A DNA stretch of 64,000 bases from Conyzicola lurida. Its GTDB lineage: Bacteria > Actinomycetota > Actinomycetes > Actinomycetales > Microbacteriaceae. Position 1 is the stretch's first letter. Every line of letters begins with the position of its first letter. Shown in pieces: positions 3,609-48,449 of this stretch. Made by a program: the position numbers and the translations under genes. Under the pieces are notes generated by a model. It saw only the letters and a program-made list of their open reading frames with translations, ran no database searches and was not told the origin of the DNA. Location: contig NZ_JACHMJ010000001.1 of NCBI RefSeq assembly GCF_014204935.1, positions 62,001-126,000 on the forward strand. The letters run 5' to 3'.

Positions 3609-4673
3609 GTGAGAATCTCCCCTCCGGCCACCGCCATGATCTACTCGGGGCCCGCCGACCCACATCGACCACTCGCCGTCGACTCGGTCGACCTGCGGCC
3701 CGGCGACGCCCTCGTCGAGATCGAGCTCGCGACGGTCTGCGGCTCTGACGTGCACACCGTCGGCGGGCACCGGTCCACTCCCACGCCGACGGTGCTCGGA
3801 CACGAACAGGTCGGCCGCGTGGTCGCGCTCGGAGACGGGGCGGTGCGCGCCGACGGCACCGCGCTCGCCATCGGCGACCGCGTCGTCTGGTCGGCCACCG
3901 TGAGTTGCGGCGACTGCGACCGGTGCACGGCCGGGCTCACCCAGAAGTGCCGGGCGTTGCGCAAGTTCGGCCACGAGCGGGTGGATGACGCGTGGACACT
4001 CAACGGCGGGTTTGCCACACACGCGCACCTTCCGCGCGGCATGGCCGTGGTCGCGGTGCCGGACCACATCCCCGCCGACGTGCTCGCGCCGCTCGCCTGC
4101 GGCACGGCCACCGCCTGGGCCGCGGTCGCCGCCGCGCTCGACGGCCGCGAGCCGCGCGGCCTCTCCCTGGTCGTCACCGGCGGCGGGCTGATCGGACTCA
4201 GCGCTGCCGCCATCGCCTCGAGCCTCGGCGCACGCGTGACCCTCGCCGACCCCGATCCGGCGAGGCGCGACCTCGCTACGCGCTTCGGCGCATCGGTCGT
4301 GCTCGACCCCACGTCGCAAACTGCCGAGCCGTGCGACGCCGCGATCGAGGCGTCCGGCTCGCGGCACGCGGTGGCGGCGGCGATCGATGCTCTGGATGTC
4401 GGCGGCGTCGCCGCCCTCGTCGGCAGCGTGTTCCCCGGAGATGCCGTGCCCCTCGACCCGGAGTCGATCGTGCGACGCCTCGCTACCGTGCGGGGAGTGC
4501 ACAACTACACGCCGCGGCACCTCGTGGACGCCGCAGACTGGGTCGCCCAGCACCACGACGCGTTCCCGTTCGCCGAACTCGTGGGGGAGCGGTTCGCGCT
4601 CGCCGAGCTGGACTCGGCGATCGCGCTGGCCGCGGCCGGCACCCACGTGCGCGTCGCCGTGTCAGCGGGTTGA
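3609..4673 (+). CDS. Zinc-binding dehydrogenase, MDR family
   Basis: 354 residues from the GTG at 3609; an in-frame ATG at 3636 (MIYSGPADP) would give 345 and is a fair alternative. It is a medium-chain dehydrogenase: catalytic zinc Cys in TVCGSDVHTV, His-Glu in LGHEQVGRV, structural zinc cysteines in CGDCDRCTAGLTQKC, and nucleotide-binding VTGGGLIGLSAAA near residue 190. The divergence from the 2361 gene is large, so this is not a recent duplicate. Its style resembles the alcohol dehydrogenases annotated as associated with phosphonate catabolism, but no phosphonate genes are nearby, so that link is weak. The stop codon lies inside a family A repeat. Confidence 0.82.
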   Translation: MRISPPATAMIYSGPADPHRPLAVDSVDLRPGDALVEIELATVCGSDVHTVGGHRSTPTPTVLGHEQVGRVVALGDGAVRADGTALAIGDRVVWSATVSCGDCDRCTAGLTQKCRALRKFGHERVDDAWTLNGGFATHAHLPRGMAVVAVPDHIPADVLAPLACGTATAWAAVAAALDGREPRGLSLVVTGGGLIGLSAAAIASSLGARVTLADPDPARRDLATRFGASVVLDPTSQTAEPCDAAIEASGSRHAVAAAIDALDVGGVAALVGSVFPGDAVPLDPESIVRRLATVRGVHNYTPRHLVDAADWVAQHHDAFPFAELVGERFALAELDSAIALAAAGTHVRVAVSAG

Positions 4674-4688
4674 GCGTGTCGAAACCCG
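4666..4688 (+). repeat. Family A hairpin repeat at convergent gene ends
   Basis: CGGGTT (4666-4671), core GAGCGTGTCGA (4672-4682), AACCCG (4683-4688): a 6-bp stem around the conserved core. It occupies the 16-bp gap between two convergent genes and supplies the TGA stop (4671-4673) of the upstream one. It may double as a bidirectional terminator. Confidence 0.75.
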
Positions 4689-4689
4689 G

Positions 4690-5640
4690 CTACTTCTTCG
4701 GCGGCGCGGGCATCACCCGGATCGCCCCGAACTTGCCAGCGATCGCCCGGAGGACCGCCGGCGTCAGTGCGAACACCGCGCCCACCATCGCGCCGGTGGA
4801 GGCGACGAAGATCCAGAAGCCGAGCCAGCCCCCGTCGTTGCGCGCCGCATACATGTGGTTGAGGTTGTCGATCGCGCCTGTCGTCAGCACGAGGAACACG
4901 TGCACCGCGGTGAAGATCAGGAAGAAAATCAGCGTGGCGTAGTGCACGGTGCGGGCGCGCTTCTCGTTGACCACGCGGTTGAAGAGAGTGTCTTTCTGAG
5001 GCCAGCCCGGCGACATCCTGAGCCCGGTGATCACCGCGACCGGGCCGGCGATGAAAATCACGACGAAGTAGCTGATCACCTGCAGCGCGTTGTAGTTGAC
5101 CCAGCCGTTCTCGCTCGGCCAGTCGAGCGAGGCGTACTGCAGGCCGGCGGAGATCGCGTTCGGCACGATGTCCCAGTTCGTCGGCACGACGCGCACCCAC
5201 TGGCCGGTAGCGAAGAGCACCACGATGTAGACCACGCCGTTGACGACCCACAGCGTATCGACGCAGATGTGCAGCCAGAGGTCGATGCTGAGGCGCCGCG
5301 GCGCGCTCTTGGTCTTCACGAACCGGGTGTTGTCCCGGGTCCAGAAGGCGCTCGGCCGCTTCTTCGAGTGCAGCTGTAGTCCCGACCGCACGATGAAGAT
5401 CAGGAAGAACGTGTTGAGACCGTGCTGCCAGCCGAGCCAGGCGGGCAGGCCGACCGGTGCGCCGTCGGGTAGGGCGGAGGTGCCGTGGAAGTCGGCGATG
5501 AAGTCCTGCGTCGCCGGCAGCTCGCGGATCCAGCGAGCGAGCACCACGATCACGACGGCGGCGACGACCGACGCCACGATCACCCAGACCAGCCGAGGGG
5601 CTCTGCGTGGTGCCGTCGTCTCCGGCGCACTGGTGTTCAC
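4690..5640 (-). CDS. Cytochrome b/b6-domain integral membrane protein
   Basis: 316 residues with about six hydrophobic helices: near residues 19-40, 68-85, 120-150, 190-215, 238-262 and 272-298. Histidines placed inside or beside helices (WQHGLN, LWLHICVD, RTVHYATL, TAVHVFLV) fit bis-haem ligation, as in the cytochrome b561/thiosulfate-reductase cytochrome-b group. Such proteins pass electrons between the quinone pool and a periplasmic or membrane oxidoreductase. No partner molybdopterin subunit is adjacent, so the electron partner is unknown. The gene diverges from the ArsR gene with only 69 bp between start codons, so their promoters are close together. Confidence 0.75.
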   Translation of the reverse strand: MNTSAPETTAPRRAPRLVWVIVASVVAAVVIVVLARWIRELPATQDFIADFHGTSALPDGAPVGLPAWLGWQHGLNTFFLIFIVRSGLQLHSKKRPSAFWTRDNTRFVKTKSAPRRLSIDLWLHICVDTLWVVNGVVYIVVLFATGQWVRVVPTNWDIVPNAISAGLQYASLDWPSENGWVNYNALQVISYFVVIFIAGPVAVITGLRMSPGWPQKDTLFNRVVNEKRARTVHYATLIFFLIFTAVHVFLVLTTGAIDNLNHMYAARNDGGWLGFWIFVASTGAMVGAVFALTPAVLRAIAGKFGAIRVMPAPPKK

Positions 5641-5672
5641 GGGAATAGTCTCCCATTTTCCCGGCTCGGCTC

Positions 5673-5718
5673 TTGCGCGCGCGACGGCACCGCGCTAACG
5701 TACAACCAAATGGTTGTA
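5673..5718 (+). promoter_or_regulatory. Leaderless promoter and operator of the ArsR gene
   Basis: TTGCGC (5673-5678), 17-bp spacer, TAACGT (5696-5701). Transcription should begin about at the ATG (5710), so the mRNA is probably leaderless. The perfect inverted repeat TACAACC-AAAT-GGTTGTA (5701-5718) spans the end of the -10, the start site and the first codons. This is the position expected for an autorepressing ArsR operator. Confidence 0.65.
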
Positions 5719-15584: not shown

Positions 15585-15625
15585 GAGACAGCAACGTACG
15601 CCCAAGTCGGTGGCCCCGTAAGAGG

Positions 15626-15745
15626 CGGGTTGAGCCTGTCGAAACCCGGGAATTGCCCGTAAACCTCGGTCGCAGGCTCCCTCGGCGCTGGGGTCGCAGA
15701 ATCGCTGGCGCGATTCCCAAAGCTCCACCGCGCAAGCTCAACCCG
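15626..15745. repeat. Family A element, degenerate inverted doublet
   Basis: The first unit is complete: CGGGTT (15626-15631), GAGCCTGTCGA (15632-15642), AACCCG (15643-15648). An inverted, truncated unit CAAGCTCAACCCG lies at 15733-15745. The 84 bp between them has no gene. The doublet sits between the divergent ABC ATPase and SulP genes, and its right end overlaps the SulP promoter region. Confidence 0.6.
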
Positions 15746-15766: not shown

Positions 15767-17275
15767 GTGCCCAGAACGCCCCTCTCGCCGCGCGAGCTCA
15801 ACACCCGCGGTAACCAGCCGTGGTCCGCCATCCTGCGTAACCCGGCCCTCATCGGAACCGAGGCGCTCGCCGGCGCGGTCACCGTGCTCGCTCTGATCCC
15901 CGAGGTCATCTCCTTCTCGATCATCGCGGGAGTCGACCCGGTCAACAGCCTCGTCGCCTCTGCCGTGCTCGCCATCACGATGTCGTTCCTCGGCGGGCGG
16001 CCCGCCATGGTCACCGCCGCAGCCGGATCGGTGGCCCTCGTCGTCGCGCCGCTCGTGCACGCGGAGGGGGTCGAGTATCTCCTCCCCACCGTCATCCTCG
16101 CCGGACTTATCCAGATCGTGTTCGGCGTCACCGGTCTCGCGCGGCTGATGCGCTACATCCCGCGGTCGGTGATGATCGGCTTCGTCAACGCCCTCGGCAT
16201 CCTGATCTTCGTCGCCCAGATCGCGAGCCTCGTCGACGTGCCGTGGCAGGTCTACCCGCTGTTCGTGCTCACACTGCTGATCATCTGGCTGTTCCCGAAG
16301 CTCACCACGATCGTGCCCGCGCCCCTCGTGGCGATCGTCGCCATCACCGCGATCACCGTCGCGGTCGGCATCACCGTGCCCACCGTGGGCGACGAGGGCC
16401 ACGTCACCGGGGGCCTGCCCGGCATCACCCCGTTCGCCGTGCCGTTCACTCTCGACACGCTCTTGCTGATCGCCCCGACCGCGATCGCCGTCGCGTTCGT
16501 CGGCCTGATCGAGACCCTGCTCACCGCGAAGCTGGTCGACGACATGACCGACAGCCCGTCGTCGAAGAAGCGTGAGTCCTGGGGTCTCGGCGTCGCGAAC
16601 ATCCTCTCCGGCCTCTGGGGCGGCGTCGCCGGCTGCGCCATGATCGGCCAGACCGTCGTCAACGTGAAGATCGGCCGTGCGCGCACGCGCCTGTCGACCC
16701 TGTTCGCGGGCGTCTTCCTGCTGCTGTTCGTCGCGGTGTTCTCGAGCGTCATGGCCGTCATCCCGATGGTGGCACTGGCCGCCGTCATGATGGTGGTCGC
16801 GGTGCGCACGGTCGACTGGCACAGCGTGCGGCCGAGCGTCATCAGACGGATGCCGCGTTCCGAGACCATCGTCATGGTGATCACGGTCGCCACCGTCGTC
16901 GTCACCAGCAACCTGGCGATCGGCGTCGGAGTCGGTGCCGTGCTGGCCGCTCTGCTGCTGTTGCAGCGGGCGTCGCAGGCGTTCAGCGTGACGCGATACG
17001 GGGCGCCGGATGCCGCGACCGTCGAGTACCGCGTGCGGGGCGCGCTGTTCTTCGCCTCGAGCAACGAGCTCGCCGACCACTTCTTCCACGCGGACGATCC
17101 CGCGCGGGTGATCATCGACCTGAGCGAGTCGCGCATCTGGGACGCGTCGAGCGTGGCCGCCCTCGACGCGATCGAGACGAAGTACGCGGGCCTCGGGTCG
17201 ACCGTGGAGGTGCGCGGCCTCGACGAGCGCAGCGCGCGGCTGCGGGCGACGCTGAGCGGGCACCTGAACCAATAG
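15767..17275 (+). CDS. SulP-family anion permease with STAS domain
   Basis: 502 residues. The membrane part (residues about 25-400) has 10-12 helices including ALAGAVTVLALIPEVISFSIIAGVDP, which is the SulP signature region, and IPRSVMIGFVNALGILIF. The C-terminal soluble part (about 415-502) is a STAS domain with RVIIDLSESRIWDASSVAALDAIE, carrying the DxSxxxxxDSS-like phosphorylation motif. SulP proteins move sulfate, bicarbonate or dicarboxylates; the substrate is not defined here. GTG start with TACAGT (15756-15761) placed for a leaderless transcript. Confidence 0.9.
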   Translation: MPRTPLSPRELNTRGNQPWSAILRNPALIGTEALAGAVTVLALIPEVISFSIIAGVDPVNSLVASAVLAITMSFLGGRPAMVTAAAGSVALVVAPLVHAEGVEYLLPTVILAGLIQIVFGVTGLARLMRYIPRSVMIGFVNALGILIFVAQIASLVDVPWQVYPLFVLTLLIIWLFPKLTTIVPAPLVAIVAITAITVAVGITVPTVGDEGHVTGGLPGITPFAVPFTLDTLLLIAPTAIAVAFVGLIETLLTAKLVDDMTDSPSSKKRESWGLGVANILSGLWGGVAGCAMIGQTVVNVKIGRARTRLSTLFAGVFLLLFVAVFSSVMAVIPMVALAAVMMVVAVRTVDWHSVRPSVIRRMPRSETIVMVITVATVVVTSNLAIGVGVGAVLAALLLLQRASQAFSVTRYGAPDAATVEYRVRGALFFASSNELADHFFHADDPARVIIDLSESRIWDASSVAALDAIETKYAGLGSTVEVRGLDERSARLRATLSGHLNQ

Positions 17276-20555: not shown

Positions 20556-20582
20556 CCGTGGCCGCCTATCGTGGCCGGATGG
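20556..20582 (+). repeat. 27-bp duplicated leaderless promoter, copy 2
   Basis: Identical to 20066-20092. TATCGT (20567-20572) should drive a leaderless message from ATG 20579 of the DUF72 gene. Confidence 0.75.
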
Positions 20583-21307
20583 TCACGCGCATCGGCACCT
20601 CCGGCTGGAGCTACGACCACTGGGACGGTGTGCTCTACCGCCCGGGTCTGCCCGCCCGCGACCGACTGGCCGCCTACGTCGAGCGCTTCGACACGGTCGA
20701 GCTCAACGCGAGCTTCTACCGCTGGCCGCGGGAGTCGAGCTTCGCGAGCTGGCGGCGCCGACTGCCCGACGGGTTCGCGCTCTCGGTGAAGGCGCCGCGC
20801 GGCCTCACCCACGCGAAGAAGCTCTACGCGCCCGAGGTGTGGATCGACCGCATAGCCCGCTGCTGGCACGAGTTGGGCGACAGACGCGCGGTGCTGCTCG
20901 TGCAGCTGCCGCCGGGCATGCCGCGCGACGACGCCCGGCTCGACTACTTCCTCGGGGCGCTGCCCGACTGGATCCGCGTCGCGGTGGAGTTTCGGCACGA
21001 GAGCTGGCACGTCGAGGACGTGTTCCGCCTGCTCGAGCGGCACGGCGCGGCCTACTGTGTCATCAGCGGCGCCGACCTGCCCTGCATCCTGCGGGCCACC
21101 GCGCCGTTCGTGTACCTGCGGCTGCACGGTCCCGATCAGCACTCGCTCTACGGCGGCAGCTACTCCGACCAGGATCTCGCCTGGTGGGCCGACCGCATCC
21201 ACGAGTGGGAGGCATCCGGCCACGAGGTTTTCGCCTACTTCAACAACGACGGCGGGGGCAACGCGGTGCGCAACGCGCAGACCCTGCGGCACCTCGTGGG
21301 TCCCTGA
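20579..21307 (+). CDS. DUF72 (YecE-like) protein
   Basis: 242 residues with the TIM-barrel-like DUF72 fold: N-terminal RIGTSGWSYDHWDGVLYRPG, then ERFDTVELNASFYRWP, FALSVKAPRGLTHAKKL, VAVEFRHESWH and FVYLRLHGPD, and near the end HEVFAYFNNDGGGNAVRNA. All these blocks are standard for the family. The molecular function is not established. The ATG at 20579 follows a promoter identical to that of the preceding gene. The TGA stop is provided by a family A repeat. Confidence 0.9.
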   Translation: MVTRIGTSGWSYDHWDGVLYRPGLPARDRLAAYVERFDTVELNASFYRWPRESSFASWRRRLPDGFALSVKAPRGLTHAKKLYAPEVWIDRIARCWHELGDRRAVLLVQLPPGMPRDDARLDYFLGALPDWIRVAVEFRHESWHVEDVFRLLERHGAAYCVISGADLPCILRATAPFVYLRLHGPDQHSLYGGSYSDQDLAWWADRIHEWEASGHEVFAYFNNDGGGNAVRNAQTLRHLVGP

Positions 21308-21321
21308 GCCTGTCGACGGGC
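21301..21321 (+). repeat. Family A hairpin repeat at the DUF72 stop codon
   Basis: TCCCT, core GAGCCTGTCGA (21306-21316), then CGGGCC; the CCC/GGG stem is shorter than in other copies. The stop TGA (21305-21307) lies across the stem-core border. Confidence 0.65.
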
Positions 21322-21336: not shown

Positions 21337-22575
21337 ATGACCCCGCTCGCCACCGTCGTGCGCACGCCAAGCGCCGTCTACCTGCTCGGCACCTCCTTGG
21401 TCGGCCGCCTCCCGAGCGCGATGGCCGCCCTCGCGATCGTGCAGCTCGTGCGTCTGCAGGGTGGCGACTACGCGCTCGCCGGCGCCATGACCGCGGTGTA
21501 CATCGTCTCGGGCGCCGTCGGCCAGCCGCTTCTGAGCCGCTGGGTCGACCGCGCGGGGCAGACGCTCGTGCTCGTCGTCTCGGCCGTGGTCAGCTCGCTC
21601 TCCTTCGCCGCGGTCGCGCTCTTCGCGGGGGACGCTCCCGCGCTCGCCTTGGTGGGCGCGGTGCTCGCCGGGTTCTTCGCCCCGCCCCTGGAGCCGTCGC
21701 TGCGTGCGCTCTGGCCGCGCATCGTCGCCCCCGGCGCACCGCTCAAGGCCGCGTTCAGCCTCGACGCCGGCGCGCAGGAAGTCATCTTCATCGTCGGGCC
21801 GTTGCTCACGGTGCTCGGCATCTCGGCCTTCGGGGCCACCGGCAACGTGCTGTTCGCCGCGGCACTCGGCCTCGTCGGCACCGTCGCCTTCGCGCTGAAC
21901 CGGGTGTCGCGCACGACGGGCGCATCCGCCCCCGGCACTGCTCCTCGCCGGTCGCCGGTGACGAATGCGGGCTTCCGGCGCCTGGTGGCGTTCACCTTCG
22001 GGGTGGGTGTTCCGGTAGGGGTTCTCACGATCTCGGTCACGGTGTTCGGCGAGAACCACGGCGTCGACGGATTCGCCGGCTGGGCGCTCGCCGCCAACGC
22101 GTTCGGCGCCCTCGCGGGGGCGACGGCTCTCGCGCTGCGTCCGCTGCGCCGCGAGCCGCAGCGCCTGCTCGCGCTGTGCGGCCTGTCGCTCGCGGTCGGC
22201 TACCTGCCGCTCGCGCTCGCCGACCTGCCGCCCGCGGTCTGGCTGGCGCTCGCCGTCGTGGCGGGGTTCATGCTGCCGCCGACTCTGGCGCAGGTGTTCG
22301 AGACCGTGCCGCGCGTCAGCGACAGCGGTGCTCTCACGGAGGCAAACGCCTGGGTCGTGAGCGCGATGAGCGTGGGTGTGGCGGCGGGCACGCTCGGCGG
22401 CGGCCTCGTGGCCGGCATCGACGCGGCAGTGCCGGTCATGGTGCTTTGCGGCTCGGCCCTCACGGCGGCGCTCGCCCTGCTCGTGCTCCCGTCGCGCATG
22501 CGTCCGGTCGCCGAGCCTGCTGCGGTCGCTGAGCCTGTCGAAGCGACATCCCTCCCAGAATCGAGCCAAGCGTGA
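21337..22575 (+). CDS. Major facilitator superfamily transporter
   Basis: 412 residues with about twelve helices. The first half has the motif-A-like loop QPLLSRWVDRAGQTLVL between helices 2 and 3, and a central cytoplasmic loop (about residues 188-212, RVSRTTGASAPGTAPRRS) separates the two halves. The second half starts at FRRLVAFTFGVGVPVGVL. Substrate is unknown, but the closest style is the small-drug/multidrug exporter group. The last residues (AEPVEATSLPES) are encoded by an inserted family A repeat. Stop and next start overlap by 4 bp (GTGA), so it is co-transcribed with the adenosine deaminase gene. Confidence 0.85.
   Translation: MTPLATVVRTPSAVYLLGTSLVGRLPSAMAALAIVQLVRLQGGDYALAGAMTAVYIVSGAVGQPLLSRWVDRAGQTLVLVVSAVVSSLSFAAVALFAGDAPALALVGAVLAGFFAPPLEPSLRALWPRIVAPGAPLKAAFSLDAGAQEVIFIVGPLLTVLGISAFGATGNVLFAAALGLVGTVAFALNRVSRTTGASAPGTAPRRSPVTNAGFRRLVAFTFGVGVPVGVLTISVTVFGENHGVDGFAGWALAANAFGALAGATALALRPLRREPQRLLALCGLSLAVGYLPLALADLPPAVWLALAVVAGFMLPPTLAQVFETVPRVSDSGALTEANAWVVSAMSVGVAAGTLGGGLVAGIDAAVPVMVLCGSALTAALALLVLPSRMRPVAEPAAVAEPVEATSLPESSQA
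22525..22547 (+). repeat. Family A hairpin repeat inside the MFS gene 3' end
   Basis: GTCGCT (22525-22530), core GAGCCTGTCGA (22531-22541), AGCGAC (22542-22547): perfect 6-bp stem with a sequence different from the CGGGTT/AACCCG type. A partial copy (GGTCGCCGAGCCTG) precedes it at 22506-22519. It is translated in frame as AEPVEAT. Confidence 0.75.
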
Positions 22576-23633
22576 TCTCCTACCCCGACTACCTCCGCCT
22601 GCTGCCGAAGACCGAGCTGCACTGCCACTTCGTCTCCACGATGCAGCCGGCCCGGCTGCTCGAGCTCGCGGACAAGAACAACGTCGCCCTCGCGTCGCGC
22701 GACATCGACACGCTCCTCGACTCGGACAACCTGCTCGACTTCCTGGCGCTGTTCAACGCCGCCCACGACGTGCTCGTGACGGGCGACGACCTCGCCCAGC
22801 TCGCCTACGACGGCGTGCGCGACGCGGTCGCCGAGGGCAACCTGCGCTACCGCGAGACGTTCATCAACCCGCAGAACTTCCCGGGGCGCAGCTACGCCGA
22901 CGTGGTCGACCCGATCCTCGACGGACTTCGCGCGGCCGAGGTCGATCTCGGCGTCGGGTTCGGCTTGGTCGTCGCGATCAACCGCAACCTCGGGGCGAGC
23001 TCGGCGACCGAGCTGGTGCAGACCGTGATCGACAACCCGCGCGACGGCGTCTTCGGCATCGGCCAGGACGACCTCTCGCCCGACGGTACCGAGAGCCCCG
23101 GCGCCTGGGTCGACGCCTACGCGCTGGCCGGACGCCACGGTCTCCAACGCACCGCCCACGTGGGGGAGACACTCGCGGCCGATCCCCGCGGCATCCTCGT
23201 CGCCCTCGACGATCTCGGCTGCGAACGCATCGACCACGGCTACCGCAGCGTCGACGACCCCGAGGTCTTCGCCCGCCTGCTCGACTCGCAGGTGCCGATC
23301 ACGTGCACGCCGCACTCGACGCGCGTGCTCAGCGGCTGGCAGTTCGGGCCGGAACACCGCATCGCGCGCATGATCGCCGGCGGCCTCAACGTGACTCTCT
23401 CGACCGACGACGCGGTGTTCTTCCGCACCGACATCGGCCGCGAGTACACCGACGTACTCCCCGCCATGGGCTTCGGGCCGGATGCCGCCAAACAGATCTC
23501 CCTCGCCGGTGCGAGCGCCGCGTGGTGCGAGCCGGGCCAACGGTCCCGGCTCGAGGCCGCGTTCCGGGCCGAGCACCTCGCCCTCGACGCGCTGCTAGCG
23601 GGTGAGCCTGTCGAAGCCTCGCCGCCCGGATGA
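22572..23633 (+). CDS. Adenosine deaminase family protein
   Basis: 353 residues. Metal and catalytic residues are placed as in the amidohydrolase fold: ELHCHF (HxH, about residues 16-18), RTAHVGET (His-x-x-Glu, about 195-200), CERIDHGYR, and STDDAVFF (Asp pair near 278). These hydrolytically convert adenosine to inosine in purine salvage; a change of substrate (adenine, modified adenosines) cannot be excluded because the usual HLDGS after HxH is replaced by HFVST. Overlap with the upstream MFS permease by 4 bp suggests nucleoside or base uptake as that partner's role. The C-terminus GEPVEASPPG derives from a family A repeat. Confidence 0.87.
   Translation: MISYPDYLRLLPKTELHCHFVSTMQPARLLELADKNNVALASRDIDTLLDSDNLLDFLALFNAAHDVLVTGDDLAQLAYDGVRDAVAEGNLRYRETFINPQNFPGRSYADVVDPILDGLRAAEVDLGVGFGLVVAINRNLGASSATELVQTVIDNPRDGVFGIGQDDLSPDGTESPGAWVDAYALAGRHGLQRTAHVGETLAADPRGILVALDDLGCERIDHGYRSVDDPEVFARLLDSQVPITCTPHSTRVLSGWQFGPEHRIARMIAGGLNVTLSTDDAVFFRTDIGREYTDVLPAMGFGPDAAKQISLAGASAAWCEPGQRSRLEAAFRAEHLALDALLAGEPVEASPPG
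23604..23614 (+). repeat. Family A core inside the adenosine deaminase 3' end
   Basis: Core GAGCCTGTCGA is intact; the flanks (GCGGGT and AGCCTC) no longer pair well, suggesting a decayed copy. It is translated in frame as EPVEA, the same peptide as in the MFS gene. Confidence 0.6.
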
Positions 23634-32747: not shown

Positions 32748-35700
32748 CAGGCGCGCATCGACAGACCGCGGGGCGTCGCGCTGAATCCGGCGTCGCCCAG
32801 GGCGATGCCGAGCGGGCTGCCGGTGATCGATTCGCCGTCGACCTGTTCGATGCGCAGTTTGCCGAGACCGGTGCGCACGATCGAGGCCAGCGAGGCGGAT
32901 GCCGCGGCGAGCACCCCCTCGTCCGCGGTGAACGTCAGCACGGTCTTGCCGCCGCGTTCCACGTACACGGCCAGGTGCCCGTCGACGAGTACCACGAGCG
33001 ACCCGGCTTTGCGTCCGGGACGGTGGCCGCGGGGCGCGTCGGGTTCGGCGGCCGGCCAGGGCAGCGCCGCGCCGTAGGGCTGCGCGGGGTCGGTCGCTGC
33101 GAGGGTGACCGCGGCGGGCGGCTCGTTGCTCGCGTCGTCGCGGGTGAAGGCGCGCAACCGGTCGACGGTGGCGCCCGTGGCGAACTGTGCGGCACCGAGG
33201 CCCTCCACGAAGTAGCCGCGGCGGGCGCGGCCGATCTCCTCGAACCCGCTGAGCACCTTGTAGGCGAGGCTGAACCCGCCGCGCACACCCTCGCTCTGCA
33301 CCGCGCCGCGGGTGACGACGCCGTGCCGCTCGAGCAGCAGCTCGGCCATCGACTTGGCGCGGATCGTGGTGTCGCCCTCGGCGAGCGGCAGCAACGACCA
33401 GCGTCCGCCGACGTTCGGCGCACCGGCCTGGCTGGGCAGGGTCGGACGGGCGCGGCCGCGGTAGGCGCGGGAGCGCGACGGCGCCCGCTTCGGCGCGGCT
33501 TTGCCGCCGAGGAACGAGCGCAGCGGCGAGAACGTGTCGTTCGTGACGAGTCCGGCCCAGACCAGATCCCAGAGCGCGGTCGTGAGTTCCTTGTCGTCCA
33601 TGCTGCCGACGGCGCCCGAGAGCTGGCGGAAGAAGAACGCGCCGCCGCCGGCGAGGCTGGCGAGGATCGAGCGCTGCAGCTCGGTGGTCTCGTCGCCGCT
33701 CGGGTCCGCGAGGGTGAGCGGCGCGTTGTCGGCGAGGTGCAGGCTGACCCAGCCGTCGCTGCCGGGCAGCGAACCGCGCCCCGACCAGACCACCTCGCCG
33801 GTGAGAGTCAGCTCGTCCAGCCAGGCGGGGCTGTAGTTGCGCAGGCGTGCGGGCAGCACGAGGGTCTCCCAGGCGGATGCCGGCAGGGCGACGCCCGACA
33901 GCTGGTCGATCACCTGCACGAGTCCGTCGATGCCGGTGAGGTTGCTGCCGACGTGCTGCCACGCGGGCAGGAAGCGACCGAGGGTGGCGGCGTCGACCGG
34001 CTCCACCTCGTGGCGCAGGGCGGCGAGCGACCGGCTGCGCAGGCGGCGCAGCACCTCGGTGTCGCACCACTCGCTGCCCGTGGCTCCCGGGCGGAACTCG
34101 CCCTCGACCACGCGGCGTTCGCGCGAGAGCCGGCGCAGGGTGTCGAGCACGACCGCGACGCCGAGCCCGAACCGGGTCGCGACCGCGGACACGGTGAAGG
34201 GGCCGTGGGTGCGCGCGAAGCGCCCGACGAGGTCGCCGAGCGGGTCGGCGACCGGCTCGATGAACGCGGCGGGCACGCCGATCGGCAGGGGGACGCCGAG
34301 CGCGTCGCGTAGGCGAGCGGAGTCCTCGATGCCGGCCCAGCGCTCGGTACCCGCGATGGTGACGCGCAGCACGCGGTTGTCGCGGGCCAGGCCGACCATG
34401 AGCGGATTGAGCCTGTCGAAATCCTCGGGCAGGCCGTCGGTCTGAGTTTCGACAAGCTCAACCCGCTCCGCGATCTCCTCAGTCGACAACGGCCCGAGCA
34501 GGCGCAGCACGTCGACGATCCCCTCGGCGTCTTTCGCGCGACGGTCGGCGGCGAGACGCTGCAGCTCGAGCTCGGTCTGCTCGATGACGCCGGCGTCGAG
34601 CAGTTCGCGCAGTTCCGCGCGGCCGAGCAGCTCGGCGAGCAGCGTCGAGTCGAGCGAGAGGGCGGCGGCGCGGCGCTCGGCGAGCGGCGAATCGCCCTCG
34701 TACATAAACGCGGCGACGTACCCGAACAGCAGCGATCGGGCGAACGGCGACGGCACCTCGGTCTCGGTCTCGACGATGCGGATGCCGCGGCCCTCGATCT
34801 CGGACGCGATGGCGACGAGCGCCGGCAGGTCGTACACGTCTTGCAAGACTTCGCGCACGGTCTCGAGCACGATCGGGAAGCTCGGGAACTTGCGCGCGAC
34901 GTCGAGCAACTGCGACGCCCGCTGCCGCTGCTGCCAGAGCGGGCTGCGCTTGCCGGGGTTGTAGCGCGGCAACAGCAGGGCGCGCGCGGCGCACTCGCGG
35001 AACCGCGATGCGAACAGCGCCGACCCGCCGACCTCCTCGGTCACGATGTCCTGCAGCTCGCCGGGCTCGAACACGAACAGTTCGGCGCCGGGAGGCGCGG
35101 CATCGGTGTCGGGGATGCGCACCACGACGCCGTCGTCGCTGGCCATCGCCGCGCCATCCATGCCCAGCCTGTCTCGAACTCTCGCCCCGACGGCCAAGGC
35201 CCACGGCGCGTGCACCTGCATACCGAAGGGCGAGTGCAGGATGACGCGCCAGTCGCCGAGCTCGTCGCGGAATCTCTCCACGACCAGGGTCTTGTCGGTC
35301 GGCACGTGGCCGGTCGACTGCTTCTGGTCGGCGACGAACGTGATGAGGTTGTTGGCGGCGAACTCGTCGAGCCCGGCGGCCACCATCCGTTCCCGCACCT
35401 CGGTCCCTGAGCTTGTCGAAGGGTCTGTGCCCGTCGACAATTCCGGCGAAGCCGTCGAGATCTCCCGCGTAAACGCCCCGATCGCCCGCCCGAGTTCGGC
35501 GGGCCGGCCGAGGCCGTCGCCCTTCCAGAACGGCACCTTGCCCGGCTGCCCGTAGGCGGGGGAGACCAGGACACGGTCGTGGGTGATGTCCTCGATGCGC
35601 CAGCTCGTGGCGCCGAGGGCGAAGACGTCGCCGACGCGCGACTCGTAGACCATCTCTTCGTCGAGCTCGCCGACGCGCGCCGCCTTCTCGCCGACCATAA

Positions 35701-37381
35701 AGACCCCGAACAGTCCGCGGTCGGGGATCGTGCCGCCCGAGGTGACGGCGAGACGCTGGGCGCCGGGGCGGCCGGTGATGGTGTCGCCGACGCGGTCCCA
35801 GACGATGCGAGGACGCAGCTCGGCGAACTCGTCGCTCGGGTAGAGGCCGCTGAGCAGGTCGAGCGTCGCGACGTAGGCGCTGCGCGGCAGGGTGGCGAAC
35901 GGCGCACTGCGGCGCACGGTATCGAACCACTCCTCGACGCCGAGCGGGCCGAGGGCCACGGCGGCGACCGTCTGCTGGGCGAGCACGTCGAGCGGGTTCG
36001 CGGGGATGGAGATCGCCTCGATCTGGCCGGACAGCATGCGCTCGGCGGCGACCGCGGTGTGCAGCAGGTCGGCGCGGTGCTTGGGGAAGAGCACGCCCTT
36101 CGAGATCTCGCCGACCTGGTGGCCCGCGCGACCGATGCGCTGCAGTCCGCTCGCGACCGACGGCGGCGACTCGACCTGTACGACGAGGTCGACGGCGCCC
36201 ATGTCGATGCCGAGTTCGAGCGAGCTCGTCGCGACGACGCAGCGCAGGCGTCCGCTCTTCAGGTCGTCCTCGATGCCGGCGCGCTGGTCTTTGCTGACGC
36301 TGCCGTGGTGCGCGCGGGCGAGCAGGGGAGCGGCGCCGGAGGTGGAGCCTGCCTGCGCCATCATCTGGGCGGGCGCGGCAGCGGGTCGAGCCTGTCGTGG
36401 CCCCTCCGACGTGATTGCGCCGACGGCGGTTTCGACAAGCTCAACCCGCGATAGTTCCCGCTCCTCGTAGATCTCATTCAGCCGCGCCGTCAGCCGCTCG
36501 GCCAGGCGCCGCGAGTTGGCGAAGACGATGGTCGAGCGGTGGTCGAGGATCAGGTCGACGATCCGCTCCTCGACGTGCGGCCAGATCGAGCCCTGCGGCG
36601 TCGCCCCGGCGGCGGACCCCTCGAGCGCGGGCGCGCTGCCGAGCTCCGTCATGTCTTCGACCGGCACGACGACGCTGAGGTCGAACCGCTTGCTCGACTC
36701 GGGCTGCACGATCGTCACGGGGGCGTTGCCGGCGAGGAATCGCGCCACTTCTTCGCGCGGCCGCACGGTGGCGCTCAGCCCGATGCGCTGCGCGGGCTTC
36801 GCGAGCAGCGAGTCGAGCCGCTCGAGCGAGACCGCGAGGTGGGCGCCGCGCTTGGTCGACGCGACGGCGTGCACCTCGTCGATGATGACCGTCTCGACCC
36901 CCACGAGCGTCTCTTTCGCGGCGCTCGTGAGCATCAGGTACAGCGATTCAGGGGTGGTGATGAGGATGTCGGGAGGCGTGCGGGCCAGCACGCGCCGGTC
37001 GCCGGGAGTGGTGTCGCCCGAACGCACGCCGACGGTCACCTCGGGGGCCGCGAGCCCCAGGCGCTTCGCCGTCTGCGTGACGCCGACGAGCGGGGCGCGC
37101 AGGTTGCGCTCCACGTCGACGCCGAGCGCTTTGAGCGGGGAGATGTAGAGCACGCGGGTGCGGTGCAGCGGGTTCTCGGGCGGGGGAGTCGACGCCAGTT
37201 TGTCGATCGCCCAGAGGAACGCCGCGAGGGTCTTGCCCGAGCCGGTCGGGGCGACGACGAGGGCGTGGCTGCCGCTCGAGACTGCTGTCCACGCGCCGAG
37301 CTGCGCGGTCGTCGGCTGCGGGAAGGCACCCGAAAACCACTCCCGGGTCGCGGGAGAGAATTTGTCGAGCACGTCGCCCAT
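32747..37381 (-). CDS. lhr: Lhr-type ATP-dependent DNA helicase
   Basis: 1544 residues, the full-length two-part Lhr. The N-terminal helicase core contains Walker A APTGSGKT (about 44-51), DEVH in VIIDEVHAVAST, the Q-motif-like PQPTTAQLGAW, and RecA2 motifs LELGIDMGAVD and QRIGRAGHQVGE. A winged-helix and beta-barrel region follows (NPLDVLAQQTVAAVALG...), and the long Lhr C-terminal domain ends at SMRA. It unwinds DNA 3'-5' and is implicated in repair with nei. Start ATG 37381. Two family A doublets and a single unit are translated in frame inside it (RVELVET segments at about residues 305-330 and 970-995, and DPSTSSGTE near 655). Confidence 0.93.
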   Translation of the reverse strand: MGDVLDKFSPATREWFSGAFPQPTTAQLGAWTAVSSGSHALVVAPTGSGKTLAAFLWAIDKLASTPPPENPLHRTRVLYISPLKALGVDVERNLRAPLVGVTQTAKRLGLAAPEVTVGVRSGDTTPGDRRVLARTPPDILITTPESLYLMLTSAAKETLVGVETVIIDEVHAVASTKRGAHLAVSLERLDSLLAKPAQRIGLSATVRPREEVARFLAGNAPVTIVQPESSKRFDLSVVVPVEDMTELGSAPALEGSAAGATPQGSIWPHVEERIVDLILDHRSTIVFANSRRLAERLTARLNEIYEERELSRVELVETAVGAITSEGPRQARPAAAPAQMMAQAGSTSGAAPLLARAHHGSVSKDQRAGIEDDLKSGRLRCVVATSSLELGIDMGAVDLVVQVESPPSVASGLQRIGRAGHQVGEISKGVLFPKHRADLLHTAVAAERMLSGQIEAISIPANPLDVLAQQTVAAVALGPLGVEEWFDTVRRSAPFATLPRSAYVATLDLLSGLYPSDEFAELRPRIVWDRVGDTITGRPGAQRLAVTSGGTIPDRGLFGVFMVGEKAARVGELDEEMVYESRVGDVFALGATSWRIEDITHDRVLVSPAYGQPGKVPFWKGDGLGRPAELGRAIGAFTREISTASPELSTGTDPSTSSGTEVRERMVAAGLDEFAANNLITFVADQKQSTGHVPTDKTLVVERFRDELGDWRVILHSPFGMQVHAPWALAVGARVRDRLGMDGAAMASDDGVVVRIPDTDAAPPGAELFVFEPGELQDIVTEEVGGSALFASRFRECAARALLLPRYNPGKRSPLWQQRQRASQLLDVARKFPSFPIVLETVREVLQDVYDLPALVAIASEIEGRGIRIVETETEVPSPFARSLLFGYVAAFMYEGDSPLAERRAAALSLDSTLLAELLGRAELRELLDAGVIEQTELELQRLAADRRAKDAEGIVDVLRLLGPLSTEEIAERVELVETQTDGLPEDFDRLNPLMVGLARDNRVLRVTIAGTERWAGIEDSARLRDALGVPLPIGVPAAFIEPVADPLGDLVGRFARTHGPFTVSAVATRFGLGVAVVLDTLRRLSRERRVVEGEFRPGATGSEWCDTEVLRRLRSRSLAALRHEVEPVDAATLGRFLPAWQHVGSNLTGIDGLVQVIDQLSGVALPASAWETLVLPARLRNYSPAWLDELTLTGEVVWSGRGSLPGSDGWVSLHLADNAPLTLADPSGDETTELQRSILASLAGGGAFFFRQLSGAVGSMDDKELTTALWDLVWAGLVTNDTFSPLRSFLGGKAAPKRAPSRSRAYRGRARPTLPSQAGAPNVGGRWSLLPLAEGDTTIRAKSMAELLLERHGVVTRGAVQSEGVRGGFSLAYKVLSGFEEIGRARRGYFVEGLGAAQFATGATVDRLRAFTRDDASNEPPAAVTLAATDPAQPYGAALPWPAAEPDAPRGHRPGRKAGSLVVLVDGHLAVYVERGGKTVLTFTADEGVLAAASASLASIVRTGLGKLRIEQVDGESITGSPLGIALGDAGFSATPRGLSMRA
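34402..34466. repeat. Family A inverted doublet inside lhr (downstream)
   Basis: Left unit: GGATT (34404-34408), GAGCCTGTCGA (34409-34419), AATCC (34420-34424). Right unit, inverted: core TCGACAAGCTC (34449-34459) with AACCC after it. The stems covary with other copies. 65 bp, translated in frame on the minus strand as RVELVETQTDGLPEDFDRLN. Confidence 0.8.
35405..35423 (+). repeat. Family A single unit inside lhr
   Basis: CCCT (35405-35408), core GAGCTTGTCGA (35409-35419), AGGG (35420-35423). Translated on the minus strand as part of DPSTSSGTE. Confidence 0.72.
36381..36449. repeat. Family A inverted doublet inside lhr (upstream)
   Basis: Left unit: GGGTC (36383-36387), GAGCCTGTCGT (36388-36398), GGCCC (36399-36403), pairing with one wobble. 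Right unit inverted: core TCGACAAGCTC (36432-36442), AACCC after it. 69 bp, translated on the minus strand as RVELVETAVGAITS and on. Confidence 0.78.
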
Positions 37382-38813: not shown

Positions 38814-38828
38814 CCGGTCACCCTCAGC

Positions 38829-38849
38829 GGGTTGAGCCTGTCGAAACCC
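38829..38849 (+). repeat. Family A hairpin repeat downstream of the DUF4916 gene
   Basis: GGGTT (38829-38833), core GAGCCTGTCGA (38834-38844), AACCC (38845-38849). It lies 15 bp after the stop codon, just before a terminator. Confidence 0.78.
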
Positions 38850-38909: not shown

Positions 38910-40412
38910 CTAGCCCTGGGCGCGACGGCCCTGGCGACGCTCGCCGCCGGACTGCTCGGCGTAGCCGGAGTTGCCGCCGGTCGAGGTCGAGTAGGTGCGC
39001 GGTGCGGCGGCCGGACGGCCACCACCGGTTGCTCCGCCACGGCGGGCGCCGCCGGAGCGACCTCCGGCCGCGGGTGCACCGGCTGCTGCGGGGCGTCCGT
39101 TGCGGTCGCGACGGGGAGCAGCGTCGCCGCCACCCTCGCGGCCGGCGCGCTTGCGCTGCGCGTTGGCGCCCTGCGAGCGACCGCCCTGGCTCTGCCCGCG
39201 GACGGGCTCGGCGGCGCGGGGCTGCGGCTTGACGTACTCGGCGACCTCGCCGACGAGGGCGATGACGGCGGGCGAGTCGGCCGTGACGCGCTGCGGCGTG
39301 ACGGTGATCGCGGCCTTGCGCAGGAGCTGCGCGGTGTCCTTGCGCTGTTCGGGCAGGACGAGCGTGACGACCTCGCCCTCCTTGCCGGCACGGGCGGTGC
39401 GGCCCGAGCGGTGCAGGTACGCCTTGTGCTCGGCCGGCGGGTCGACGTGGATCACGAGCTCGATGTCATCGACGTGCACACCGCGCGCCGCGACATCCGT
39501 GGCCACGAGGACGCGCGAGGTGCCGGCGGCGAACGCGGCGAGGTTGCGGTCGCGGGCGACCTGCGAGAGGTTGCCGTGCAGGTCGACGGCGGGGATGCCG
39601 GAATCGGTGAGCTGGCGGGCGAGCTTCTTCGCGTGGTGCTTGGTGCGCATGAACAGGATGCGACGGCCCTGGCCCGAGGCGAGCTTCTCGATGAGGAGAC
39701 GCTTGGACTCGACCGAGTCGACCTCGAACACGTGGTGGGTCATGGCGGAGACGTGGCTGGTGGCCTCGTCGACCGAGTGCAGCACCTCGTTGTGGAGGTA
39801 GCGGCGCACGAGCTTGTCCACGCCGTTGTCGAGGGTCGCGCTGAACAGCATGCGCTGTCCGGTCGACGGGGTCTTGTCCATGATGCGGGTGACGACCGGC
39901 AGGAAGCCGAGGTCGGCCATGTGGTCCGCCTCGTCGAGGATCGAGATCTCGACCGAGTCGAGGTTGACGAAGCCCTGCTTCATGAGGTCCTCGAGGCGGC
40001 CGGGGCAGGCGACGACGATGTCGACACCGGCCTTGAGTGCCGCGACCTGGCGCTGCTGGCTGACGCCGCCGAAGATGGTGGTCGACTTGAGGCCGTACGC
40101 GTCGGCGAGTGGGGTCAGCGCGACGGTGATCTGCGTGGCGAGCTCACGGGTCGGCGCGAGGATCAGCGCGAGCGGACGGTTCGGGCGACGGCTTCCACCG
40201 GCGAGCTTGCCGCCGAGGCGGGCGACCATGGGGATGGAGAACGCGAGGGTCTTGCCGGAGCCGGTCTTTCCGCGGCCGAGGACGTCGCGGCCTGACAGGG
40301 TGTCGGGGAGCGTGTCGACCTGGATCGGGAACGGGGCGTCGATTCCCTGGGCGGCGAGAGCCGCGACGAGGGGAGCCGGAACGCCGAGCGCGGCGAAGGA
40401 GTTTTCAGACAT
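38910..40412 (-). CDS. DEAD-box ATP-dependent RNA helicase
   Basis: 500 residues. The helicase core (about 1-375) has the Q motif IDAPFPIQVDTLP, motif I GKTGSGKT, motif Ia PTRELATQI, motif II DEAD (SILDEADHMADLGF), motif III SAT (MLFSATLDN), motif V ATDVAARGVHVDD and motif VI HRSGRTAR. The C-terminal 120 residues are low-complexity Gly/Arg/Ala-rich with RGQSQGGRSQG and RNGRPAAAG, an RNA-binding tail. It belongs to the cold-shock/RNA-decay helicases of the RhlE/CsdA kind. The 5' leader is long (about 280 bp gap), often seen in cold-inducible helicase genes. Confidence 0.92.
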   Translation of the reverse strand: MSENSFAALGVPAPLVAALAAQGIDAPFPIQVDTLPDTLSGRDVLGRGKTGSGKTLAFSIPMVARLGGKLAGGSRRPNRPLALILAPTRELATQITVALTPLADAYGLKSTTIFGGVSQQRQVAALKAGVDIVVACPGRLEDLMKQGFVNLDSVEISILDEADHMADLGFLPVVTRIMDKTPSTGQRMLFSATLDNGVDKLVRRYLHNEVLHSVDEATSHVSAMTHHVFEVDSVESKRLLIEKLASGQGRRILFMRTKHHAKKLARQLTDSGIPAVDLHGNLSQVARDRNLAAFAAGTSRVLVATDVAARGVHVDDIELVIHVDPPAEHKAYLHRSGRTARAGKEGEVVTLVLPEQRKDTAQLLRKAAITVTPQRVTADSPAVIALVGEVAEYVKPQPRAAEPVRGQSQGGRSQGANAQRKRAGREGGGDAAPRRDRNGRPAAAGAPAAGGRSGGARRGGATGGGRPAAAPRTYSTSTGGNSGYAEQSGGERRQGRRAQG

Positions 40413-44726: not shown

Positions 44727-44727
44727 C

Positions 44728-46204: not shown

Positions 46205-46240
46205 TCGCTGCATTCCGCCGGCCGCTGCTTTTTCTCGGCG

Positions 46241-46690
46241 CTACCGCCGCGCCCAGCTGATCGCGTTCGCGAGGTCGAAGCTGCGCGAGCACTTGCCGCA
46301 GGCGAGCAACCGCTTCGGCTGCCGGTACCCGTAGTGGATGTGGCCCCTCGGGCAGGTGCCGACCCACGGAGCGAGCTCGTCGGCGATCGCCCCGTCGTGC
46401 AGTCGTTTGCCCTCGTAGCCGAGTTCGGCCGCGGTCGCCTTCCAGCGCTCGCCGTGCCCGGCCCGCGAACCGGCCATCGCGTGGGCCACCTCGTGCAGCA
46501 GCACCTGGTGGATCTCGTCGTCCTCGTAGCGCGCCGCGAGGTACTTCGACACCGAGATGCGCTTGGTCGTGTAGTTGCACAGGCCCGCGCGGGTTTTCGC
46601 GTTGTCGAACCCGAAGGTCCACACGCTCGGATCGAGGTGCAGCGCGATCAGGGCGTCCGCCCACTGTCGCACTCGTACTAGTTCAGCCAC
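46241..46690 (-). CDS. SprT-like zinc metalloprotease-domain protein
   Basis: 149 residues. Catalytic HEVAHAMAG (HExxH) near residue 66, with the third ligand probably in GHGERW. A C-terminal zinc ribbon has CPRGH and CGKCSRSF. This is the SprT/SPRTN-like fold, known in eukaryotes for DNA-protein crosslink repair; the bacterial role is unproven. Transcribed in the same direction as the TPR gene, 9 bp downstream of it. Confidence 0.88.
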   Translation of the reverse strand: MAELVRVRQWADALIALHLDPSVWTFGFDNAKTRAGLCNYTTKRISVSKYLAARYEDDEIHQVLLHEVAHAMAGSRAGHGERWKATAAELGYEGKRLHDGAIADELAPWVGTCPRGHIHYGYRQPKRLLACGKCSRSFDLANAISWARR

Positions 46691-46699
46691 CTGACGAAA

Positions 46700-47221
46700 C
46701 TAGCTCCCGGCACCGTCGATAAAGGTCTCGGTGATCTGGATGGCGATCATCGCGGCATCCACCTCGTCTGGGGAGGACTTGATGCGAACGTGCACCTTCA
46801 GGGCGTCGCTGAAGTCGCGGCGCGCGGCGTCGTAGTCCTCCATGTCGAAGTTCACGCGGCCGCGCTGCTGCAGCGCGAAGGCTTCGGTCGCCGACCAGTC
46901 GTGGGCGTGCGCCTCGTTGACGCAGTCGGTGAGGTCGGCGAGGGCCGGCTCGAGCTTGCCGAGAGCCTGCTGTACCTGGGCGCGGCGCACGCGGGCGAGG
47001 GCGAGCATCTCGCGGTCGCCGCCGAACCGCGCCTGGCGCACGGCCTGGTTCGCGATGTCCCATGCCTCGTCGAGCTTTCCGGCGAGACGGAGGAGTCCGA
47101 CCTTCTCGTCGAGGGCCGCAGCGCTGCGGAGCTCGCCGAGTTCCTCGAGGCGTTCCTCGAGAGCGACAGGGTCGACCTGTTCGCGAAGGGTGGTGGGGTC
47201 GTAACCCAAAACGATTGCCAC
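46700..47221 (-). CDS. TPR-like helical protein, unknown function
   Basis: 173 residues from GTG 47221, which has AAGGA upstream; GTG 47242 is an alternative. The helices DEKVGLLRLAGKLDEAWDIANQAVRQARFGGDREMLALARVRRAQVQQALGKLEPALADLTDCVNEAHAHDWSATEAFALQQRGRVNFDMEDYDAARRDFSDALKVHVRI form about three to four TPR-like repeats. Such proteins mediate protein contacts. Upstream of and likely co-transcribed with the SprT-like gene. Confidence 0.75.
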   Translation of the reverse strand: MAIVLGYDPTTLREQVDPVALEERLEELGELRSAAALDEKVGLLRLAGKLDEAWDIANQAVRQARFGGDREMLALARVRRAQVQQALGKLEPALADLTDCVNEAHAHDWSATEAFALQQRGRVNFDMEDYDAARRDFSDALKVHVRIKSSPDEVDAAMIAIQITETFIDGAGS

Positions 47222-47255
47222 GGGGGATGTCCTTAGGTTCACTTGCGACTCAAGG

Positions 47256-48449
47256 TTAACCCGGCGCGACCGTTCCGAGCGGCACCTCGATCAGCTTGTC
47301 GTCACCCTCCTGCACCGATCCGCGGCCGTCCGTGTTGCTCGTGAGCATCCAGAGCGTGCCGTCCGGGCCCGGCGTCACGTCGCGGATCCGGCCGTACACG
47401 CCCTCGAACCACGGCTGTGTCGCGACCCCGTCGGCCGTCGTCACCGACCAGAGCCGCTGCCCCTTGAGTGCCGCGAGGTAGAAGGCACCCCGGGTGAATG
47501 CCAGCCCGCTGGGGCTCGCGTCGTCTGTACCCCACTGCGCCACCGGGTTGGTGAAAGCCGGGTCGGATGCCACGCCCTCCACGACAGGCCAGCCGTAGTT
47601 GGCCTCCGCCTCGATGGCGTTCAACTCGTCCCAGGTGTCTTGGCCGAATTCGGCCGCCCACAGCTGGCCGCTGTCGTCCCACGCGATGCCCTGCGGATTG
47701 CGGTGGCCGAGCGAGTAGACCAAGGTCCCCGTGAACGGGTTGTCGTCGGGCGCGGCGCCGGCGGGCGTCATCCGGAGCACTTTGCCGTTTAAGGAGTCGG
47801 GGTCTTGGGCCGCGTCGCGCACGCTGGCGTCGCCGGTCGTGGCGTAGAGCATGCCGTCGGGCCCGAAAGCGATGCGTCCGCCGTTGTGGTTGCCGGCCTT
47901 GGTGATGCCGGTGAGGATCGGCTCCGCGGCACCGATCGCGTACGCGCCCGGTTCGCCGCCGAGGGGCATGCGCACGATGCGGTTGTCGTCGGCACCGGTG
48001 AAGTAGGCGTAGAGCCAGAGGCCGGCCCCTGAGCGTGTCGAAGGGCTCGTCCCATCGCCCGCACTCTCCGCCCCCAGCACCGCGAGCCCGAGCAGGCCGC
48101 CCTCGCCGCCCGGCACCACGCCCGCGACCTCGCCGACCACACGCACTGAGCCGTCCGCGGTGATCTCTTTCACGAGGGCGGTGTCGCGCTCGCTGACGAG
48201 GGTCGATCCGCTCGCGAGCCGCGCGATGGACCACGGCGACGTCAGCCCCGTGGCGATGACGACGGGGTCGCCCGACGGGAGCGCGAGCGGCTCGGCCGTG
48301 GCGGTCGGCGTGCCCGTGCCGGTCGGCACCGGAGCCGGTTCGCCCGCCGGCTGCGTCGCGCATCCGGCGAGCAGCGCCGTCACGCCGAGAATCGCGGACA
48401 ATCGCGCGGCGGTGGTGTGCCGTGTGCTGTTCCGTCCCGCCGAGTCCAT
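47256..48449 (-). CDS. PQQ-dependent sugar dehydrogenase-like lipoprotein
   Basis: 397 residues. The signal ARLSAILGVTALLAGC has a lipobox, so the protein is membrane-anchored outside the cell. The beta-propeller domain shows GNHNGGRIAFGPDGMLYATTGD (the His-Asn-Gly-Gly-Arg PQQ site), LGHRNPQGIAWDDSGQLWAAEFGQDTWDELN, and the terminal GPDGTLWMLTSNTDGRG. It is of the soluble glucose/sorbosone dehydrogenase group, oxidising aldoses. Whether PQQ is made by this organism cannot be seen. The segment GDGTSPSTRSGAG is encoded by an in-frame family A unit. Confidence 0.88.
   Translation of the reverse strand: MDSAGRNSTRHTTAARLSAILGVTALLAGCATQPAGEPAPVPTGTGTPTATAEPLALPSGDPVVIATGLTSPWSIARLASGSTLVSERDTALVKEITADGSVRVVGEVAGVVPGGEGGLLGLAVLGAESAGDGTSPSTRSGAGLWLYAYFTGADDNRIVRMPLGGEPGAYAIGAAEPILTGITKAGNHNGGRIAFGPDGMLYATTGDASVRDAAQDPDSLNGKVLRMTPAGAAPDDNPFTGTLVYSLGHRNPQGIAWDDSGQLWAAEFGQDTWDELNAIEAEANYGWPVVEGVASDPAFTNPVAQWGTDDASPSGLAFTRGAFYLAALKGQRLWSVTTADGVATQPWFEGVYGRIRDVTPGPDGTLWMLTSNTDGRGSVQEGDDKLIEVPLGTVAPG
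48028..48046 (+). repeat. Family A unit inside the sugar dehydrogenase gene
   Basis: CCCT (48028-48031), core GAGCGTGTCGA (48032-48042), AGGG (48043-48046). It lies on a loop-coding segment and is translated in frame. Confidence 0.72.

Follow-up and report, generated by a model that had tools for sequence, protein, structure and literature searches.

We report here a short hairpin repeat that was noticed in a window of 64,000 nt from Conyzicola lurida (the whole stretch of DNA analysed) and followed through its own genome (G000, one contig of 3.64 Mb), related and distant bacteria, plasmids and viral contigs. The repeat is real: its unit consists of a foot that differs by lineage, three covarying pairs and a constant TGAGCNTGTCGAA, with a centre of 13 letters; it is distributed patchily, keeps an identical centre across phyla, and is biased in placement and orientation towards the 3' ends of genes, where inverted doublets fold strongly. 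It is probably mobile and partly retained. With a confidence somewhat above even, we interpret it as a non-autonomous hairpin repeat, similar to repetitive extragenic palindromes (REPs) and defined by its centre, that would be spread by a trans-acting factor and often retained as a 3'-end hairpin. REPs are generally tied to REP-associated tyrosine transposases (RAYTs); a REP-like repeat with hundreds of copies, the same centre in several phyla and no recognisable Y1 gene in the rich genomes tested points to another mobiliser or route of spread.

A hairpin repeat with a constant centre and covarying stems

The core GAGCNTGTCGA is present in 14 exact copies in the window, where 0.34 would be expected (200 dinucleotide shuffles, maximum 3), and in nine of the 14 the pairs -1, -2 and -3 are all complementary (0.01 expected, maximum 1). 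The initial annotation had named 12 units, all of which were located, with 48032 corrected to 48031 and the core at 36388 found to end in T (one mismatch). Eleven of them are exact; the three further exact cores, at 16462(-), 22715(-) and 40308(+), lie within predicted genes and have no stem, and the one at 40308 was found again, as coding sequence, in the sister species G330. All three pairs are present in nine of the named units, 21306 having T.C in place of the inner T-A, and one of the three is missing in each of 23604, 36388 and 34459(-). The units are as follows.

4665..4686, + strand: unit of GGGT/ACCC type in a convergent gap; gene 3636-4673 is predicted to stop at the TGA of this unit
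15625..15646, + strand: unit of GGGT/ACCC type in a divergent gap
21299..21320, + strand: degenerate unit with T.C for T-A; gene 20579-21307 is predicted to stop at the TGA of this unit; G330 lacks the unit and is about 20 nt shorter there
22524..22545, + strand: unit of TCGC/GCGA type; predicted gene 21337-22575 has its 3' end close by
23597..23618, + strand: degenerate unit without pair -1; predicted gene 22572-23633 has its 3' end close by
34402..34423, + strand: unit of GGAT/ATCC type within an Lhr-type helicase gene, forming an inverted pair with 34445-34466
34445..34466, - strand: unit without pair -3, inverted partner of 34402-34423
35402..35423, + strand: unit of TCCC/GGGT type within the Lhr-type helicase gene; this unit (site 35414) falls in a 39-column alignment block that is gapped in four relatives
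36381..36402, + strand: degenerate unit with core ending in T and without pair -1, within the Lhr-type helicase gene, forming an inverted pair with 36428-36449
36428..36449, - strand: unit of GGGT/ACCG type, inverted partner of 36381..36402; in this linker G330 carries a doublet of another stem type
38827..38848, + strand: unit of GGGT/ACCC type in a convergent gap, 13 nt past a predicted stop codon
48024..48045, + strand: unit of GCCCC..GGG type within predicted gene 47256-48383 (opposite strand)

In the neighbouring linkers of the Lhr-type helicase gene, the relatives have other sequence.

Genome-wide, exact cores number 375 (187 + 188) against 47 (21 + 26) for the reversed pattern, and TGAGCNTGTCGAA occurs 223 times (110 + 113) against 0 + 1. 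The search of the genome proposed in the initial annotation thus found an excess beyond the window together with covarying stems; neither a lack of excess nor a failure to covary was encountered. A covariance model built from the 12 window units gave at least 147 matches in the own genome at E up to 1, its scoring covering 150 of 5,040 candidates. The region from about 0.84 to 2.0 Mb, 32% of the chromosome, has only 15 of these 147 listed matches.

Without any stem filter, Watson-Crick pairing at -1/13, -2/14 and -3/15 was counted in 86-88% of 174 own cores, in 88-94% of 72 cores from Betaproteobacteria and sphingomonads, in 85-88% of 40 cores of genome G271 and in 81-87% of 62 cores of genome G187. 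The corresponding shuffle values are 42-60% in the first three sets and 64-85% in G187, where the stem is nearly constant and pair -1 is not clearly above shuffles (59 of 500 shuffles). Across the 12 window units, 16 cells are changed on both sides, against 5.3 in shuffles. Excess and covariation bear out the initial annotation in describing a short hairpin repeat whose core is constant and whose stems change in a compensating way. The stems of four to six pairs that it gave are, as a rule, longer than the data allow: in the own cores pairing at -1, -2 and -3 is far above shuffles, but pair -4/16 is only slightly above shuffles in the own, G271 and G187 sets and not so in the betaproteobacterial set. 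In logos, which include only units with two paired positions, the foot reads GCG or CGGT in the own genome, CCGTTC in Betaproteobacteria and sphingomonads, CCCGCT in G271 and TGGGT in G187; the centre is constant there because it was the search key. When folded on one strand, this centre may be drawn as T-A, tandem G.A and A.G, and G-C around a five-base loop.

A relative with a longer loop, TTGAGTAG..stem..TATCGAAA, has the same TGAG/TCGAA collar and was counted seven times in 464 kb of own sequence. Such hairpins were also seen in genus relatives and in loci of Anaerolineae metagenome-assembled genomes (MAGs); the loci in these three settings together are L194, L200, L201, L203, L210 and L211, and also L047, L085, L094 and L186. 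Searched against Rfam, the window gave no match above the gathering score, and L194, L199 and L202 gave only a tRNA.

Patchy distribution across phyla

In a survey of the class, at least one match was found in 222 of 296 genomes, mostly one or a few, and only eight genomes have 12 or more (223 in the own genome, then 143, 129, 104, 41, 36, 18 and 12). The six genomes of the own genus carry 223, 84, 9, 7, 6 and 6 copies, two of the low-copy ones being incomplete assemblies (82% and 63%); such a contrast between two species with many copies and four with six to nine makes the question of another mobiliser or route of spread testable within a single genus.

Beyond the class, the exact 21-mer GGGTTGAGCCTGTCGAAACCC was found in 93 stretches of named genomes belonging to Actinobacteria, Chloroflexi, Proteobacteria and others. 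Its carriers include Agromyces, Pseudarthrobacter, Leifsonia, Acidovorax, Polaromonas and Sphingobium as well as Anaerolineae and Spirochaetaceae MAGs and single MAGs labelled Bacteroidetes and Woesearchaeota, among which misbinned contigs are possible. Related units are carried by Sphingobium megaplasmids and by viral contigs, at least 120 stretches of the latter matching the pattern CCCTGAGCNTGTCGAAGGG (each pattern search listed at most about 150 places); a second viral scan with the pattern GGGTTGAGCNTGTCGAAACCC gave no matches. In an alignment of homologues of a phage protease, an extra segment of 7 residues falls together with one hairpin copy, and a second copy shows the like less clearly. 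Units were also observed inside predicted phage genes (protease-like or portal-like by reading of the sequence) in viral contigs L407, L332, L408 and L410, where they are translated through as short extra peptides, e.g., PSTGSGQ or PSTSSG. A 31-nt query gave only weak or partial phage matches, which were left out of the evidence.

Placement at gene ends and retention between relatives

The context of the units was studied in the 464 kb mentioned above, i.e., the window and 20 stretches of the own genome that were picked as unit-rich, so that the figures describe such regions; genes were called with a simple codon-usage finder. The set holds 147 cores, of which 100 are stem-bearing (a run of at least three pairs from the T-A pair, G.T allowed), one of these being the coding coincidence at 40308. 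Seventy-three of the 100 are intergenic, against 8.5% of random positions, with 34 in convergent gaps (random 1.1%), 32 in tandem gaps (4.6%) and 7 in divergent gaps (2.8%); counted by gap, a unit is carried by 23 of 54 convergent, 24 of 166 tandem and 4 of 76 divergent ones. Like a REP, the repeat is thus a palindrome in high copy and mostly extragenic. Units at gene ends prefer the sense orientation, by 26:8 relative to the nearest gene in convergent gaps and by 22:10 in tandem gaps. The other 27, at least one of them a coding coincidence, lie within predicted genes, in both orientations (15:12). By chromosome half, set without a located origin, the strands are divided 24/15 and 28/33, with no clear bias.

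The distance between stop codon and foot is exactly 8 nt in 11 of 54 sense units and 5-10 nt in 23, and in eight of the 54 the TGA of the centre is itself the predicted stop codon, so that for annotation the repeat both sits in predicted genes and supplies predicted stops. No such peak exists on the opposite side of the units, and stop triplets stand at the 8-nt distance in 11 of 51 sense units but in 1 of 45 others; the spacing is therefore related to the gene. A stem 8 nt downstream falls just outside the footprint of a ribosome on the stop codon, and such spacing would be in keeping with a role as RNA or with a constraint linked to translation. As a general rule it was dropped, since no clear peak was seen in the smaller samples from other lineages.

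Of 24 pairs of neighbouring units no more than 60 nt apart, 21 are inverted. Where a gap holds inverted units, the median folding z is -6.4 (convergent, 14 gaps) and -6.1 (tandem, 11), against -2.1 (convergent, 11) and -2.0 (tandem, 17) for gaps with single or same-way units and -2.5 (convergent, 24) and -0.9 (tandem, 119) for unit-free gaps. The inverted doublet thus folds into a long hairpin, as in a REPIN, the inverted REP doublet of Bertels and Rainey (PMC3116915, accessible part).

Comparison with the nearest relatives (about 82-86% identical in the compared regions) revealed both retention and difference. At three convergent gaps the inverted order of units is kept in the own genome and G330 while the rest of the gap has diverged; pair -2/14 has changed from G-C to C-G in one unit and from G-C to A-T in another, and one middle unit is reduced to a remnant in G330. 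At one clean presence/absence site, a divergent gap, the own genome is 64 nt longer than G330 and the extra sequence consists of three units; G333 is likewise without units there, in a longer unrelated gap. Two gene-bearing segments, of about 2.4 and 1.5 kb, that G330 and G333 lack at this place are also bordered by units at both ends; no units border the other large differences in the regions compared.

L199:8024-10403: unit-bordered segment with one predicted gene, ABC-ATPase-like
L202:8630-10095: unit-bordered segment with one predicted gene, an iron-containing alcohol dehydrogenase

At the convergent gap L202:6432-6513 and its orthologue, two species carry an inverted unit doublet, and G333 (L478) has a long perfect hairpin of unrelated sequence at the orthologous place.

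These observations bear directly on the alternative that the repeat is mainly a functional RNA, namely a selected 3'-end hairpin (terminator or mRNA-end protector) that travels by ordinary horizontal transfer and gene conversion with no mobiliser. The sense bias, the spacing of 8 nt from the stop, the strong folding of doublets, the retention at three convergent gaps with compensatory changes in two units, and the unrelated hairpin that G333 has in place of a doublet all argue for it. We nevertheless consider it rather unlikely, roughly a one-in-five prospect in our judgement, as one genus member has 223 copies and others six to nine, units lie in genes both ways, the three single units tested fold no better than shuffles, the logos have no T-rich run and the spacing is not general.

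Known repeats and the search for a mobiliser

The likeness to REPs seen in the initial annotation holds for placement and pairing, inverted doublets and copies in genes, and does not hold for the GTAG foot or the RAYT. GTAG REPs and REPINs resemble the present family in size class (REPs being palindromes of 20-40 nt), in a 5' foot followed by a hairpin, in copy numbers of hundreds, in their position at gene 3' ends, in inverted doublets with strong folding and in the occurrence of some copies in genes. They differ in that here the GTAG foot is absent from all five feet given above, the centre is the constant element, with a foot that changes from lineage to lineage, the rich genomes tested contain no Y1 gene and units do not lie beside the Y1 loci examined. 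Failing the tests of foot and RAYT, the family is not filed under REP/REPIN despite its like behaviour.

According to the accessible part of the literature, GTAG REPs are tied to RAYTs and CGTC REPs are apparently without a dedicated transposase, an end tag being the defining feature of both; untagged families in other bacteria are mentioned by Di Nocera et al. (2013; PMC3733652). The CGTC REPs resemble our repeat as palindromes in several phyla that form mostly inverted dimers; they have a CGTC end tag, stems of 8-9 bp and loops of 4-5 bases (PMC3733652), whereas here the logos contain no CGTC foot and three variable pairs surround a constant 13-nt centre. The accessible main text of that paper does not name Actinobacteria (PMC3733652). 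The Rickettsia palindromic elements described there also have copies inside protein-coding genes, and are set apart by described sequence and host range rather than by sequence comparison. For TnpA_REP, foot, bulge and loop each have roles, and in E. coli REPs a mismatch within the stem makes a difference (PMC8266576, accessible part); by analogy, the G.A pairs of the present unit might matter in a similar way. A further REP paper was included in the comparison (PMC12306157, accessible part). Intrinsic terminators share the strong folding of doublets at convergent gene ends, and differ by the constant centre, the patchy cross-phylum spread, the weak single units and, in the logos, no T-rich position after the unit. 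The idea of a single-unit terminator was rejected on the folding of the three units tested. That the sequence looks unlike known REPs, as the initial annotation had remarked, agrees with our search of the literature by motif string and topic, which found no paper with the repeat, most subscription papers being outside its reach.

The initial annotation had likened the units to REPs, which RAYTs move, and had proposed a search for such a transposase. A RAYT was not borne out by the genome check: the own genome and 17 others, including seven that are rich in the hairpin, gave no Y1_Tnp (PF01797) match at E up to 1. Y1 genes do occur in 19 of 33 foreign genomes carrying the 21-mer (76 matches), and none of the 30 loci examined among these matches has a hairpin beside the gene (flanks up to 1.5 kb). 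With no Y1 match in the rich genomes tested and no unit at the Y1 loci examined, RAYT was rejected as the mobiliser. It might still be supposed that these are classical REPs/REPINs, once moved by a TnpA_REP and orphaned after loss of its gene; size class, polarity, inverted doublets and 3'-end placement would fit, and the survival of REPs after RAYT loss has been suspected (PMC6006769, accessible part). We regard such an origin as improbable, as PF01797 is missing from hairpin-rich genomes in several families, the 30 foreign Y1 loci are free of units and the GTAG foot is absent.

A second candidate was the DUF222-HNH protein, which we take to be 13E12-like. In G271, four copies of its gene have units on both sides and a fifth upstream only (fetched stretches L244-L248); these paralogues are about 81-83% identical and the similarity between copies stops near the units. 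The family is found in 21 of 25 genomes tested, most actinobacterial ones included. In the window, positions 1-1383 hold a DUF222-HNH gene (PF02720; sub-threshold HNH match) that is cut by the left edge, with no unit found near. That this protein moves the units is very unlikely: in a set of 30 DUF222 loci, those of G308, G310 and G000 (1.3 kb away) are the only ones outside G271 to show a unit, DUF222 copy number does not track unit number, the G271 copies are paralogues that may reflect one event, and DUF222 gave no match in four genomes that do bear units, three of which are not actinobacterial. As a general mobiliser it was discarded, being bracketed by units in G271 only. When 1,159 open reading frame products from 213 foreign and viral hairpin loci were clustered, no candidate nuclease was seen; read without family search, the larger clusters look like structural genes of phages, a transporter of the ABC type and frames that are probably antisense. 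Finally, a DNA-uptake or other genome-wide signal sequence can be all but dismissed: inverted pairs at gene ends also mark uptake sequences, but here the stem is free yet covarying, the copies number only a few hundred, and one signal would be shared by many phyla while remaining patchy within a genus.

We return to the proposed centre-defined, trans-mobilised hairpin repeat. We infer that a trans-acting factor, other than a recognisable Y1/RAYT transposase, would recognise the folded centre in single-stranded nucleic acid, the core being a putative protein site and the hairpin the presumed moving form. Single units or inverted doublets would thereby be copied into new places, and other phyla may have been reached via phages, plasmids or other transferred DNA. 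The copies that survive lie for the most part downstream of genes; inverted doublets fold strongly there and probably act as transcript ends in both directions, through termination or mRNA-end protection.

Several points weigh against this interpretation. No mobiliser was found, the whole-genome family searches covering PF01797 and PF02720, and three single window units, as RNA or DNA, fold no better than shuffles. The 8-nt spacing was not clearly seen in other lineages, where samples are smaller. Both pair changes at the retained gaps turn one common stem type into another, so that gene conversion or replacement of the whole copy explains them as well as point selection. At about 82-86% identity, a deletion in G330 could in principle account for the 64-nt difference, and no precise empty site between close strains, unit ends or target duplication, as would mark a miniature inverted-repeat transposable element, can be read at this divergence. 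Moreover, two Sphingobium plasmids that are about 93% identical have a unit at the same place in both, which speaks for slow or past movement.

More tentatively, and with distinctly less than even confidence, the family might represent a further large superfamily of palindromic repeats beside GTAG and CGTC, characterised by a folded centre (TGAG..CGAA collar), occurrence in many phyla, a non-Y1 factor and feet that evolved by lineage.

A different repeat of about 70 nt was observed at L199:16367-16440 (own genome near 2.116 Mb); it folds strongly, has no Rfam match, and is present in many copies of 80-96% identity in G329, G330 and G333.

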